This document shows, piece after piece, positions 14,138-60,315 of a DNA stretch of 64,000 nt. The DNA is taken from contig NZ_CANMEZ010000005.1 in NCBI RefSeq assembly GCF_947496985.1, forward strand, positions 186,001 through 250,000, read 5' to 3'. This DNA is from an uncultured Kordia sp. Lineage in GTDB: Bacteria > Bacteroidota > Bacteroidia > Flavobacteriales > Flavobacteriaceae. Made by a program: the position numbers and the translations under genes. Position 1 is the stretch's first letter. Every line of letters begins with the position of its first letter. Under the pieces are notes generated by a model. It saw nothing but the letters and a program-made list of their open reading frames with translations, was not told where the DNA came from and made no database searches.

Positions 14138-14389
14138 TTAACAAAAACGACAAGTTTTCTCTCTTAATGTTAATGGCTCAATCACAGTAATAGTAGTTGT
14201 AGTGCACATATTTAGTGTGCAAATTGTAGTAAAAGGTGGTACTGGACAAACAATATTGTTTGTATTATCGTTTGGTCCACATTCATGTATAGAGCAATTT
14301 GTGGTTGCAGTTCCTCCTTTAACTGAATGACTCAAATTAGAGATAGACATTTTCGCGAGTCTTAATGATTTAAGATTCTTTTTTTTCAT
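14138..14389 (-). CDS. RiPP precursor-like peptide (class I lanthipeptide / GG-leader type), copy A
   Basis: MKKKNLKSLRLAKMSISNLSHSVKGG leader then Thr/Cys-rich core TATTNCSIHECGPNDNTNNIVCPVPPFTTICTLNMCTTTTITVIEPLTLREKTCRFC. Confidence 0.75.
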   Translation of the reverse strand: MKKKNLKSLRLAKMSISNLSHSVKGGTATTNCSIHECGPNDNTNNIVCPVPPFTTICTLNMCTTTTITVIEPLTLREKTCRFC

Positions 14390-15297: not shown

Positions 15298-15462
15298 CTA
15301 ACAAGCATATTCACTTGCCGTTGGATGACAATTTCCTGTACGACTTATATCTGACCAACTATCACAGTAAAAAGATCTAGGAGGTCTTCCTCCAACTAAG
15401 TTAGCCATACTTGAAATTGCTTTTTTGTTCAACGTCAATGTTTTAAGATTTCTCTTTTTCAT
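15298..15462 (-). CDS. RiPP precursor-like peptide, copy B (start corrected from 15522 to the internal Met at 15462)
   Basis: MKKRNLKTLTLNKKAISSMANLVGG leader + RPPRSFYCDSWSDISRTGNCHPTASEYAC. Confidence 0.75.
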   Translation of the reverse strand: MKKRNLKTLTLNKKAISSMANLVGGRPPRSFYCDSWSDISRTGNCHPTASEYAC

Positions 15463-45769: not shown

Positions 45770-45973
45770 ATGAAAAGGAAAAATTTTAAATCATTAAAAC
45801 TGAATAAAAAAATAATTTCGAATTTTTATCAATCTAAAATTAAAGGGGGAAATACAACAACAAGAGAGAGTGTATTTATTTGTGGACCTCGACCTTCTAT
45901 TGATATTTGTGATAGTGATTATTGTCCTCCTTCAAAAGGTGAAGCAATTACTCTTTGTATGTGCAATTTATAG
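45770..45973 (+). CDS. RiPP precursor-like peptide, copy C
   Basis: MKRKNFKSLKLNKKIISNFYQSKIKGG + NTTTRESVFICGPRPSIDICDSDYCPPSKGEAITLCMCNL. Confidence 0.75.
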   Translation: MKRKNFKSLKLNKKIISNFYQSKIKGGNTTTRESVFICGPRPSIDICDSDYCPPSKGEAITLCMCNL

Positions 45974-47477: not shown

Positions 47478-47828
47478 TTATAAGAGCGGATCTTTATTTT
47501 TAAAGTCTGAAACTAACTTCTTGTAACGTTTTTCTAGGTTTCTGTTATCAATCAATATAATTATTAATACAGAGAAGAATATAAATATAGAATAACCTAA
47601 AATTGAATTTAAGCTACCTTTCAATGTCCCTGAACCACCTTCATCTGGACTTATGATATAAGAACCAGCTTGTTCTCCTTGGCTTGGAACCACATTTGAG
47701 GTAATATTATCCTGTAGCTGATCATCCGCTTTATTCGGGATGTTAGCATGTAGGTTAAGGGCAAATATGAAAAATAATAATATGGTAATTTGTATTTTCA
47801 CAGCATAAAAATATAAAAAAAAACTCAC
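47478..47828 (-). CDS. Small membrane/secreted hypothetical protein
   Basis: Signal-like N-terminus, one C-terminal TM (YSIFIFFSVLIIILID) and basic tail. Confidence 0.55.
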   Translation of the reverse strand: MSFFLYFYAVKIQITILLFFIFALNLHANIPNKADDQLQDNITSNVVPSQGEQAGSYIISPDEGGSGTLKGSLNSILGYSIFIFFSVLIIILIDNRNLEKRYKKLVSDFKNKDPLL

Positions 47829-48385: not shown

Positions 48386-48571
48386 CTATTTTGCAGTTTT
48401 TAATTCTGTTGGACAGTCAGGACAAGAATAACATGATAAGTGACAAGTGCAAACTCCTACTGGAATAGTTGTTTGATTAGAACCTAATCTTCCTCCTGAT
48501 ACAATAATACGATCTAATTTACTAATTGATTTCTTATTTAATGCTAAACTTTGTGTTGTTCTTTTTTTCAT
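48386..48571 (-). CDS. RiPP precursor-like peptide, copy D
   Basis: MKKRTTQSLALNKKSISKLDRIIVSGG + RLGSNQTTIPVGVCTCHLSCYSCPDCPTELKTAK. Confidence 0.75.
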   Translation of the reverse strand: MKKRTTQSLALNKKSISKLDRIIVSGGRLGSNQTTIPVGVCTCHLSCYSCPDCPTELKTAK

Positions 48572-48687: not shown

Positions 48688-48879
48688 TTACTCAGATGTA
48701 CATTGCATACGTCCTGATGGTCCCCAGCAGTATACTTCAATTGTTAATGGTTCCGCAATAGGGTCCGCACAATTACAATACGTTTTCGTGTTAGGAGCCG
48801 CACCAGTTACAATGTTAGCTCTAAAGTTAGAAATTGACTTTTTGTTAAGCGTTAAGCTTTTTACATTTCTTTTTTTCAT
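48688..48879 (-). CDS. RiPP precursor-like peptide, copy E (start corrected from 48915)
   Basis: MKKRNVKSLTLNKKSISNFRANIVTGA + APNTKTYCNCADPIAEPLTIEVYCWGPSGRMQCTSE. Confidence 0.75.
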   Translation of the reverse strand: MKKRNVKSLTLNKKSISNFRANIVTGAAPNTKTYCNCADPIAEPLTIEVYCWGPSGRMQCTSE

Positions 48880-49338: not shown

Positions 49339-51912
49339 ATGGACAGTTTAGCAAAAGCATTAGCTATTAATCATTATAATTTGTCTCTTTCAACTAAGAA
49401 TACTGATGATTCAGATTTTGATCCTTCTGAGATAAAATGGAAAAGGATAGAAACAATACTCAAAAGAGGAATTACAGAAGATGATATAGGTTTTTCTCGA
49501 AACATTCTCATAATTGGAGCAGGAGCTTCTAAAAATGCATGTAGTGAAGCTTACACAACAGATCAAATTGTAGAAAAACTTTATGAGAAATTATCAGTTT
49601 TTGAAATGATATACGGAACTAAAAAAGAATTAGAAAAAGATAAAGAAAAAGAAAAAGAAATCTCCAAAATAATTGAACAGAATAAAAAGACTAGACCTTT
49701 TGCAGAGAAATTTTTTTCAGATGCTTTCAAACATATAAATCGGGTAAGAGATGATTCAATGAAAATGAAGACATTATTGGATAAAATTGGATTTGAAGGT
49801 GCTTTAAAAATTTTACATGAGTTTATTAATAAAGAAGATATAACAAAATGTATTGTTGAACTTTTAAATTATAGATATATACCAAATTTATTTTATGAAA
49901 TCATTGCACATATGTTTAATCATCGATTTATAGATGTCATCATCAACTTAAATTTTGATGAAATGTTAGATAGTGCTATTGAAGATGAAATGGGAGATTC
50001 TGACTGGATGAAAATCACAAATGATGCATCATGTATAAAGTTTGAGAAAGCGATTGTTGAAAATAGGTTAAGAATACCTCTTTATATAAAACCTCATGGC
50101 ACAATCAGTGATATTGATTCGCTATTGTATTCTGTGCCACAATATTTAAACTTGTCAAGCTCTATTAGAGATTTACTTAAAAAAATATTTAAAGGGACAG
50201 TTTCCCATACTAATGAACTTGATCAAGGTGAAAAAAAGATAAAAAGATTCAACATTATTGCAGTTGGATATGCATTTAATGATACTGATGTATTCGAGCA
50301 TGTATGTGAAAATATACTCAAAAATTATAGGCATAGAAAAAAAGATAGATTTGAGACTAGTCTTTATATATTCAATCCTCATCCGATAGAAATTTTACAA
50401 AACATCTCCGAAAAGATAGATCATATAAATGATTATAATCAATATGATAAATTTAAGAAAGAACTAACCTATTATATTGATCATGACAGATTGAAAAAAT
50501 TAGAAATTAAGATTTTAAACGAAGTAAATGATAGAAAAAAAGAAGAACTGAAAAAAAGATATAGTATACAAAAAAAACAAATAAAAAAAGTAAAAAAAAC
50601 TATTTTAAAACTTTTTGTAGCTAGTAAAGATGTAAACTCAATGGACAATATAAATCTTAAATTTTTAAGCTTATATAAAAATATTAGAGATTATTTTAAT
50701 TCTCCATTTGAGCCTGCCTTACCTTTGAGACATTTGTTTATCTGTAAAATTTTCACACAAAAGTATCTAGAGGGGATTCTAAAAACAGATCCTACTGCAA
50801 AAGGATTAGAACAACTTCTTCAAGATAGATATAAGGTAAATTTACTTTTTGATTTATTAAAATTTAATGGTGAAGTTCCAATAAATGTAATTACACATGG
50901 TAGGACAGGGAAATATTACCGTTTATATTCTGAAGAATTTCTTGATAATAAGAACTCAGATAAAAATAAGTTAGAATACATTTTTGATTTATTGCACCAT
51001 GAAAGAAGTGGAACTTTCAAAGAAGATAGCTTTTTAGTCAATGAAGAGTTTTTAAAATCTCAAAAAATTTATGAGTCATTTTATGGTAATAAAGAAACCA
51101 AACATCTTACTGTTAATAATAAAGAATTTTACGAAAAATTTGCTAAGATTATAGGAGAAATTATAGAAGAATATAAAAATAGTGATGTAAATAAAATTTT
51201 TAAAGATGTAATTTTAGAGTGCTCAATTCATAATAAGATTCCCTACACAGGTTCACATGAAATAAATTCAAAATATGATGATCCTGAATATGTGAAATTT
51301 TACCCTTTTAATAGTGAAAATATCATTAATACAAATTTGAGTTTAACATGGCATTTTTATGATTATTCAGTGAATAACCTAAAAGATTGGAATAAACTAA
51401 TCATGGTTTCTTATTCCGGAAGTGCATTGATTAACCTACATATTAAAAGTTCTAATAAAGAAAATACGCATCTTGAGAAAATATTTGATAAAGGAAAAAC
51501 AATTGAATTATATTACGAATGTGAGCACCCTGTTTTTTTTGAAAAAGAAGATAAAGATGAAATGACACCTAAATCTATTATTAATTTTATAAAAAATGAT
51601 TTAAGTAAAGAAAATTTTACTTATCATAATATCAATAAAATTAAAAATTTCCATAAAATGGCATTATTCTTAGATAGAGATGAAGTAAAATATGGAATTT
51701 ACTTTTTCAATCCTCCACATAAAAATAGAATTAACCCTGTTTGGTTTTCTGTAGTTGAAGACGATAAGAAAAAAGGGAGGGATTTCAATAAAAAGAATTT
51801 GAAAATCATGAAAGAGTATGCTGAAACTTTAAAAGAGAAAGTTCGTGAACAAAATGAAATTAATAGCCTAAAATTAGAGATTGAAAAGTTAAAGGAACAA
51901 AAAAGAAATTGA
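49339..51912 (+). CDS. SIR2-like (SIR2_2-type) domain protein with large uncharacterised C-terminal region; candidate anti-phage NADase
   Basis: aa 56-64 ILIIGAGAS; aa 203-210 NLNFDEML; aa 251-255 KPHGT; aa 308-317 AVGYAFNDTD; 857 aa. Confidence 0.85.
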   Translation: MDSLAKALAINHYNLSLSTKNTDDSDFDPSEIKWKRIETILKRGITEDDIGFSRNILIIGAGASKNACSEAYTTDQIVEKLYEKLSVFEMIYGTKKELEKDKEKEKEISKIIEQNKKTRPFAEKFFSDAFKHINRVRDDSMKMKTLLDKIGFEGALKILHEFINKEDITKCIVELLNYRYIPNLFYEIIAHMFNHRFIDVIINLNFDEMLDSAIEDEMGDSDWMKITNDASCIKFEKAIVENRLRIPLYIKPHGTISDIDSLLYSVPQYLNLSSSIRDLLKKIFKGTVSHTNELDQGEKKIKRFNIIAVGYAFNDTDVFEHVCENILKNYRHRKKDRFETSLYIFNPHPIEILQNISEKIDHINDYNQYDKFKKELTYYIDHDRLKKLEIKILNEVNDRKKEELKKRYSIQKKQIKKVKKTILKLFVASKDVNSMDNINLKFLSLYKNIRDYFNSPFEPALPLRHLFICKIFTQKYLEGILKTDPTAKGLEQLLQDRYKVNLLFDLLKFNGEVPINVITHGRTGKYYRLYSEEFLDNKNSDKNKLEYIFDLLHHERSGTFKEDSFLVNEEFLKSQKIYESFYGNKETKHLTVNNKEFYEKFAKIIGEIIEEYKNSDVNKIFKDVILECSIHNKIPYTGSHEINSKYDDPEYVKFYPFNSENIINTNLSLTWHFYDYSVNNLKDWNKLIMVSYSGSALINLHIKSSNKENTHLEKIFDKGKTIELYYECEHPVFFEKEDKDEMTPKSIINFIKNDLSKENFTYHNINKIKNFHKMALFLDRDEVKYGIYFFNPPHKNRINPVWFSVVEDDKKKGRDFNKKNLKIMKEYAETLKEKVREQNEINSLKLEIEKLKEQKRN

Positions 51913-60117: not shown

Positions 60118-60315
60118 TTATGCTGGATGTGTTCCCATATCACAAACCCAACCTTGTGTGCAGTTTGCAGCTATGGTGCAATACTCTTGTAAAGTTCCCC
60201 AACAGTTTCTTGGAGCATAACTTGTAGTAGTTCCTCCACCTTTTGTTGCTTCTGTATTCAAATTAGAAACTGATTTCTTGTTAATTGATAACGATTTAAG
60301 ATTCTTTTTTTTCAT
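60118..60315 (-). CDS. RiPP precursor-like peptide, copy F
   Basis: MKKKNLKSLSINKKSVSNLNTEATKGG + GTTTSYAPRNCWGTLQEYCTIAANCTQGWVCDMGTHPA. Confidence 0.75.
   Translation of the reverse strand: MKKKNLKSLSINKKSVSNLNTEATKGGGTTTSYAPRNCWGTLQEYCTIAANCTQGWVCDMGTHPA

Follow-up and report, generated by a model that had tools for sequence, protein, structure and literature searches.

A candidate SIR2-type defence NADase with a probable TrmB/PLD-like C-terminal half in an uncultured Kordia

What does a single large gene with a SIR2-like N-terminus do when its other half resembles no catalogued domain? This question is raised by an 857-residue open reading frame (ORF) with an ATG start, product P0001, in a 64,000-nucleotide stretch of DNA from an uncultured Kordia sp., hereafter called the window (Table 1). 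The original prediction took it for a lone candidate abortive-infection NADase with a novel C-terminal half. SIR2 NADases recur as a bacterial immune weapon, and the systems built on them differ in how they sense infection. The reading favoured here, at a probability of roughly 0.6, is that P0001 is a single-gene, phage-triggered abortive-infection NADase in which a C-terminal winged helix (wHTH) and a degenerate PLD domain serve as sensor or switch.

Table 1. Positions within the window of the features discussed in the text
Feature	Position	Strand	Basis
SIR2 and predicted TrmB/PLD-like fusion, P0001, 857 aa	49339–51912	+	ORF; same region order in six homologs; GC content
N-terminal segment, residues 1–54	49339–49500	+	aligns with family segment LALNLVDVSTxxEE; HTH of some relatives absent
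SIR2_2-type domain, residues 54–349	49498–50385	+	PF13289 over 200–349; GAGAS, N205, D207, H253, G254
GAGAS NAD-binding motif, residues 60–64	49516–49530	+	G60, A63 and S64 invariant in 7/7; motif of PMC12931631
Family signature H191xxxHRFxDxxxNxNxDExLD211 with catalytic-type Asn205/Asp207	49909–49971	+	invariant columns in 7/7
KPHGTIS, residues 251–257, with catalytic-type His253-Gly254	50089–50109	+	K251, H253, G254, T255 and S257 invariant in 7/7
Predicted winged-helix segment, residues ~485–567	50791–51039	+	alignment to modelled homolog L011; Foldseek TrmBL2 match
Predicted PLD-fold domain, catalytically degenerate, residues ~659–820, with invariant H763-N764	51313–51798	+	alignment; L011 model; Foldseek
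C-terminal lysine/glutamate-rich helix, residues 818–857	51790–51909	+	low-confidence model; unconserved in family
Lanthipeptide-like short ORFs	14279–14389, 15346–15462, 45770–45973, 48386–48571, 48691–48879, 60160–60315	−, −, +, −, −, −	

The reading frame and its family

At the base composition of the region, 857 open codons would arise by chance with a probability of about 10^-39, and the ORF is real as claimed. Its GC content of 25.4% is the lowest among the 28 window ORFs of at least 250 residues (28.7–36.8% elsewhere), which is consistent with horizontal acquisition, and such signs of transfer lend indirect backing to a defence role. Six full-length homologs were found, each 21–26% identical to the window protein. 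A phylum-wide search gave one clear find, P0002 of genome G680 (759 residues), and an alignment-guided scan of GTDB contigs, which used two short peptide patterns and was not exhaustive, added proteins from a Phaeodactylibacter MAG (L011, 810 residues), Neolewinella persica (L012, 744 residues), a contig that bears the label "unicellular cyanobacterium SU2" (L013, 935 residues) and a Lewinella MAG (L014, 828 residues). The seventh member, in genome G995, was found by the C-terminal profile alone. The family occurs in three genomes across 1,625 genome searches (some genomes being counted repeatedly), plus four contig loci. It is absent from the 10 other genomes of the genus, and apart from its own genome no homolog was found in 100 relatives or 400 members of the taxonomic family, where one weak match was an unrelated protein. 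Weak matches in six genomes (G148, G709, G608, G674, G577 and G1112) were set aside, either after inspection or as spurious. An earlier contig scan with low-complexity patterns gave no homolog, and neither tblastn searches of phage and plasmid records nor six viral-contig scans gave a relative of the window protein; two plasmid SIR2 proteins matched by P0002 were discarded, the similarity covering the SIR2 region only and at low identity. The family is coherent, very rare and patchily spread. The genes of the L013 contig (NEED01000032.1) are closest to those of the Phaeodactylibacter locus L011, and this contig may be a contaminant in its assembly rather than a source of cyanobacterial genes.

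All seven members share one region order, namely an N-terminal segment, SIR2_2, a middle region and a C-terminal domain, and 38 alignment columns are invariant. The C-terminal half described as novel is therefore not isolated to one gene; it is a conserved module of the family. The extended N-terminus of L013 shows a helix-turn-helix (HTH) match below cut-off (HTH_37, E = 0.003); L011 and L014 align with this extension, and the window protein lacks it. The window protein has also diverged in the C-terminal domain, where the PWW preceding His763 is lost and seven residues are inserted after Asn764. The G995 homolog (L037:8114–10426) carries one in-frame TAA in a loop of the C-terminal domain, beyond which a readable segment resembles the conserved GFYYE..LLSRRVNP block, suggesting that this copy, which lies beside TIR genes, is truncated or decaying.

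The SIR2 domain and its predicted catalytic residues

The SIR2_2 model PF13289 matches residues 200–349 of the window protein with E = 9e-8 and 32.8 bits against a curated cut-off of 24.5, in agreement with the SIR2_2-like region predicted for the N-terminus; the other members score 33–42 bits, so that all seven exceed the cut-off. Invariant columns of the SIR2 half include G60, S64, H191, H195-R196-F197, D199, N205, D207-E208, K251, H253-G254-T255 and S257, to which the family signature adds L210 and D211. Asn205, Asp207, His253 and Gly254 are thus retained in 7/7 members at 21–26% identity to the window protein. The interior of GAGAS varies in two homologs (GPNAS and GAAAS) while G60, A63 and S64 stay fixed. 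Asn205 at 49951 and His253 at 50095 are where the original prediction placed them, and VGYAFNDTD and the C-terminal strings that it quoted are present; the position given for IIGAGAS, 49516, is that of residue 60, the Gly with which GAGAS opens, the longer string beginning two codons earlier at 49510.

In DSR2, Asn-133 and His-171 are needed for NAD+ cleavage and are kept in ThsA, pAgo, DSR1 and HerA-type sirtuins (PMC11087589). The SIR2 effector of Avs5 is defined by GAGXS, TTNXD (xxNxD) and HG/NG motifs, and each of the N110A, D112A and E202A substitutions abolishes immunity (PMC12931631). Asn205, Asp207 and His253 are the counterparts of these essential residues and are retained throughout the family, so the proposed equivalence with SIR2 defence effectors agrees with both reports. 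In PADLOC, the SIR2 domain of P0002 comes closest to the models for pAgo-associated SIR2 (E = 4e-7) and PDC-S65, and P0002 matches a ThsA model weakly (E = 0.0017). The sequence evidence supports the assignment of the N-terminal domain as a SIR2-type NADase domain of a known kind, with its catalytic signature intact family-wide.

An ordinary sirtuin, either a deacetylase or an ADP-ribosyltransferase with a housekeeping role, or else a decayed gene, would fit the single copy in housekeeping surroundings, the divergent C-terminus of the window protein and the in-frame stop of the G995 homolog. This explanation is extremely unlikely, since the domain is of the SIR2_2 type, the family is rare and patchy, the window ORF is intact through 857 codons and the signature is conserved. 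Furthermore, no CxxC pair occurs within residues 54–349 of the window protein, and so nothing points to a zinc site like that of the deacetylase sirtuins.

Predicted fold and catalytic state of the C-terminal half

The C-terminal half had been said to match nothing recognizable. This holds at the sequence level: outside SIR2_2 the window protein has no credible match in Pfam, NCBIfam or PADLOC, the last answering the HMM search of defence models that the original prediction proposed, and searches of PDB sequences with the protein (phmmer) or with profiles gave nothing meaningful. A Pfam match to N4_RNAP_helical below cut-off is probably an artefact of a lysine-rich helix. It no longer holds with respect to the six homologs and a fold-level match. 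The original prediction proposed structure prediction with Foldseek for this half. The AlphaFold model of the window protein itself, from five sequences, reached a pLDDT of only 40.6 and was set aside, and the fold was instead read from a model of the C-terminal half of L011 (five sequences; pLDDT 72.5, pTM 0.57). Archaeal TrmBL2 ranks first among the Foldseek PDB matches of the L011 model (E = 2.7e-4, probability 1.00), with an alignment of about 345 columns spanning the winged helix and the PLD part; the global TM-scores are low (0.27/0.40), which may stem from a different or uncertain orientation of the domains to each other. Lower matches are the effector domain of TrmB (E = 0.03), the PLD nuclease Zucchini (E = 0.17) and FAM83B, which is PLD-like (E = 0.42), and the weak viral matches include a PLD-type envelope lipase from a poxvirus as well as a PLD protein. 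Neither the window protein nor its homologs match the Pfam TrmB models, and profile–profile comparison with classical PLD families (PLDc_2 and PPK PLD domains) gave no signal, so that the PLD/TrmB assignment comes from fold comparison only. On this modelled fold, the C-terminal half is probably a TrmB-type wHTH plus PLD-fold regulator-like module. The coiled coil predicted at the C-terminus corresponds to a helix over residues 818–856 in a low-confidence model and is not conserved in the family.

Invariant residues of this half are P459, R464-H465, F472, G511, R522, W684, G694, L697 and H763-N764. The His763-Asn764 pair occupies the place of HxK in PLD enzymes, and this pair, together with the PLD-like fold and the weak Zucchini matches of the model, could point to a dual effector in which the SIR2 NADase is joined to an active PLD-type phosphodiesterase or nuclease. 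However, at the Lys position of HxK the window protein has Ile and its relatives have K, Q, R or E, and the conserved frame has no Asp at the spacing of HxKxxxxD (HKD), which disfavours a working phosphodiesterase. The TrmB effector domain is a member of the PLD fold superfamily that lacks the catalytic motif, and the PLD folds of both TrmB and FAM83, which the model matches, are non-catalytic. A dual effector is therefore very unlikely. The original prediction left open a phage sensor or a second effector; since the PLD HxK...D signature is lost, a sensor module is the likelier of the two, as the modelled resemblance to a TrmB-type wHTH and PLD fold would suggest.

The same resemblance gives rise to the main rival of the defence reading, namely a transcription regulator that senses NAD+ or ADP-ribose, in which HTH and wHTH parts would bind DNA and the SIR2 and PLD folds would bind ligands with no toxic hydrolysis. 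The predicted TrmB-like half, the additional N-terminal HTH of L013, which the alignment extends to L011 and L014, and the isolation of the window gene among metabolic genes are in line with such a regulator. Against it, the strict retention of the catalytic Asn, Asp and His goes beyond the needs of ligand binding alone, some homologs lie in restriction and TIR islands, and the window protein itself lacks the N-terminal HTH. A regulator of this kind is unlikely.

Proposed function and gene neighbourhoods

For the abortive-infection NADase favoured here, we infer NADase activity, a trigger and a defence role. The C-terminal winged helix and the catalytically degenerate PLD-fold domain would act as the sensor or switch; this half may bind an infection cue, be it a nucleic acid, a phage protein or a ligand resembling a nucleotide or a sugar, binding would change the assembly of the SIR2 domains, and the activated N-terminal SIR2_2 domain would hydrolyse NAD+. 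A bolder version is possible but tentative: this would be a defence family not described before, whose TrmB-like winged-helix and PLD-fold module directly gates a SIR2 NADase and so converts a small-molecule or nucleic-acid cue into NAD+ loss within one protein. TrmB-like modules have so far come from sugar-sensing or chromatin regulators. A regulator-like sensor half, if true, would be a new route of activation, tying cell suicide to regulators that bind metabolites or DNA. The conserved Asn205, His253 and His763-Asn764 and the small size of the family make the proposal directly testable.

The family most likely represents a new architecture among SIR2 defence proteins. It resembles DSR2 and DSR1 as a single-gene SIR2 protein with an N-terminal NADase-type domain, equivalent Asn and His residues and a large C-terminal regulatory half, but this half is predicted to combine a wHTH with a PLD fold; the 50 PDB matches that Foldseek listed for the L011 C-terminal model include no DSR2 chain, and no DSR model was matched in PADLOC, a release that may or may not include such models. 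ThsA of Thoeris likewise has a SIR2 NADase-type domain, and the G995 homolog neighbours TIR genes, whereas the window protein has no SLOG/STALD sensor match and its gene no adjacent ThsB. Unlike SIR2-HerA (Nezha), the window gene has no neighbouring HerA ATPase. The SIR2 effectors associated with pAgo and long-B pAgo are the systems nearest to the P0002 domain in PADLOC; the window gene has no Argonaute adjacent or fused to it, and the C-terminal half has no pAgo-associated domain match. Avs5 (AVAST type 5) likewise carries its SIR2 effector, with the motifs GAGXS, xxNxD and HG/NG, in a single protein (PMC12931631), but the window protein shows no match to a STAND P-loop NTPase in Pfam at E ≤ 10. 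The predicted order of winged helix and PLD-fold domain follows the layout of winged helix plus effector-binding domain described for TrmB and TrmBL2 (PMC4158304), whereas the window family is bacterial, fused to SIR2 and devoid of a sequence-level match to TrmB in Pfam. A SIR2 domain coupled to a TrmB/PLD-like half appears to be undescribed in the libraries and literature searched.

The window gene is a solitary copy in a neighbourhood of housekeeping and metabolic genes, and the copies of L011, L012 and L014 likewise lie among ordinary genes; this setting counts against the defence reading, as do the phage, plasmid and viral-contig searches that gave no relative. In agreement with the prediction that HerA, ThsB and Argonaute partners are not adjacent, a Pfam scan that reached roughly 9 kb upstream of the gene and 8 kb downstream of it detected neither HerA nor ThsB/TIR nor Argonaute. 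The genes around the G680 homolog code for the R subunit of a type I restriction-modification system, an N6/N4 DNA methylase, an SNF2 helicase, a NOV_C/PD-T4-1-like protein and HsdS, and three TIR_2 genes flank the G995 homolog; judged from gene content, the context of these two copies indirectly favours a defence or conflict role. UvrD-helicase and DUF4268 genes lie near the L013 homolog. Local gene order is not shared with relatives of the genus, which precluded an empty-site comparison.

A divergent pair, coding for a DUF6565 lipoprotein and a transmembrane (TM) coiled-coil protein, lies beside the SIR2 gene in L011 (3370–4403) and L013 (4036–5010), the small lipoproteins of the two loci being 47% identical, and L014 carries one TM coiled-coil-like ORF at the corresponding position. 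This shared pair and the TIR genes adjoining the G995 copy would suit a SIR2-plus-partner system, with the partner among such divergent neighbours or elsewhere in the genome. No neighbour is common to 7/7 members and none of these genes adjoins the window gene; moreover, L011 and L013 are each other's closest relatives (54% identical), and so their shared neighbours may merely reflect common ancestry. The pair, found beside only two of the seven members, was rejected as a general partner, and a partner-dependent system is quite unlikely.

In the window, a 116-residue ORF at 47478–47828 on the minus strand has a signal peptide-like N-terminus, a C-terminal TM helix and no Pfam match. Several short ORFs (Table 1) carry the leader MKKRxxKSLxLNKKSISxL, which resembles those of class I lanthipeptides, and have cores that contain Cys. 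With one of them as query, the whole genome (G000) gives 142 places at E ≤ 1 and 38 at E < 1e-3, scattered across many contigs and nearly all starting at leader residue 1–3, and only one LanB-type gene (Lant_dehydr_N) was found in the genome, at C1:475412–477382. These ORFs would form part of a very large dispersed repertoire of RiPP precursors, possibly modified in trans.
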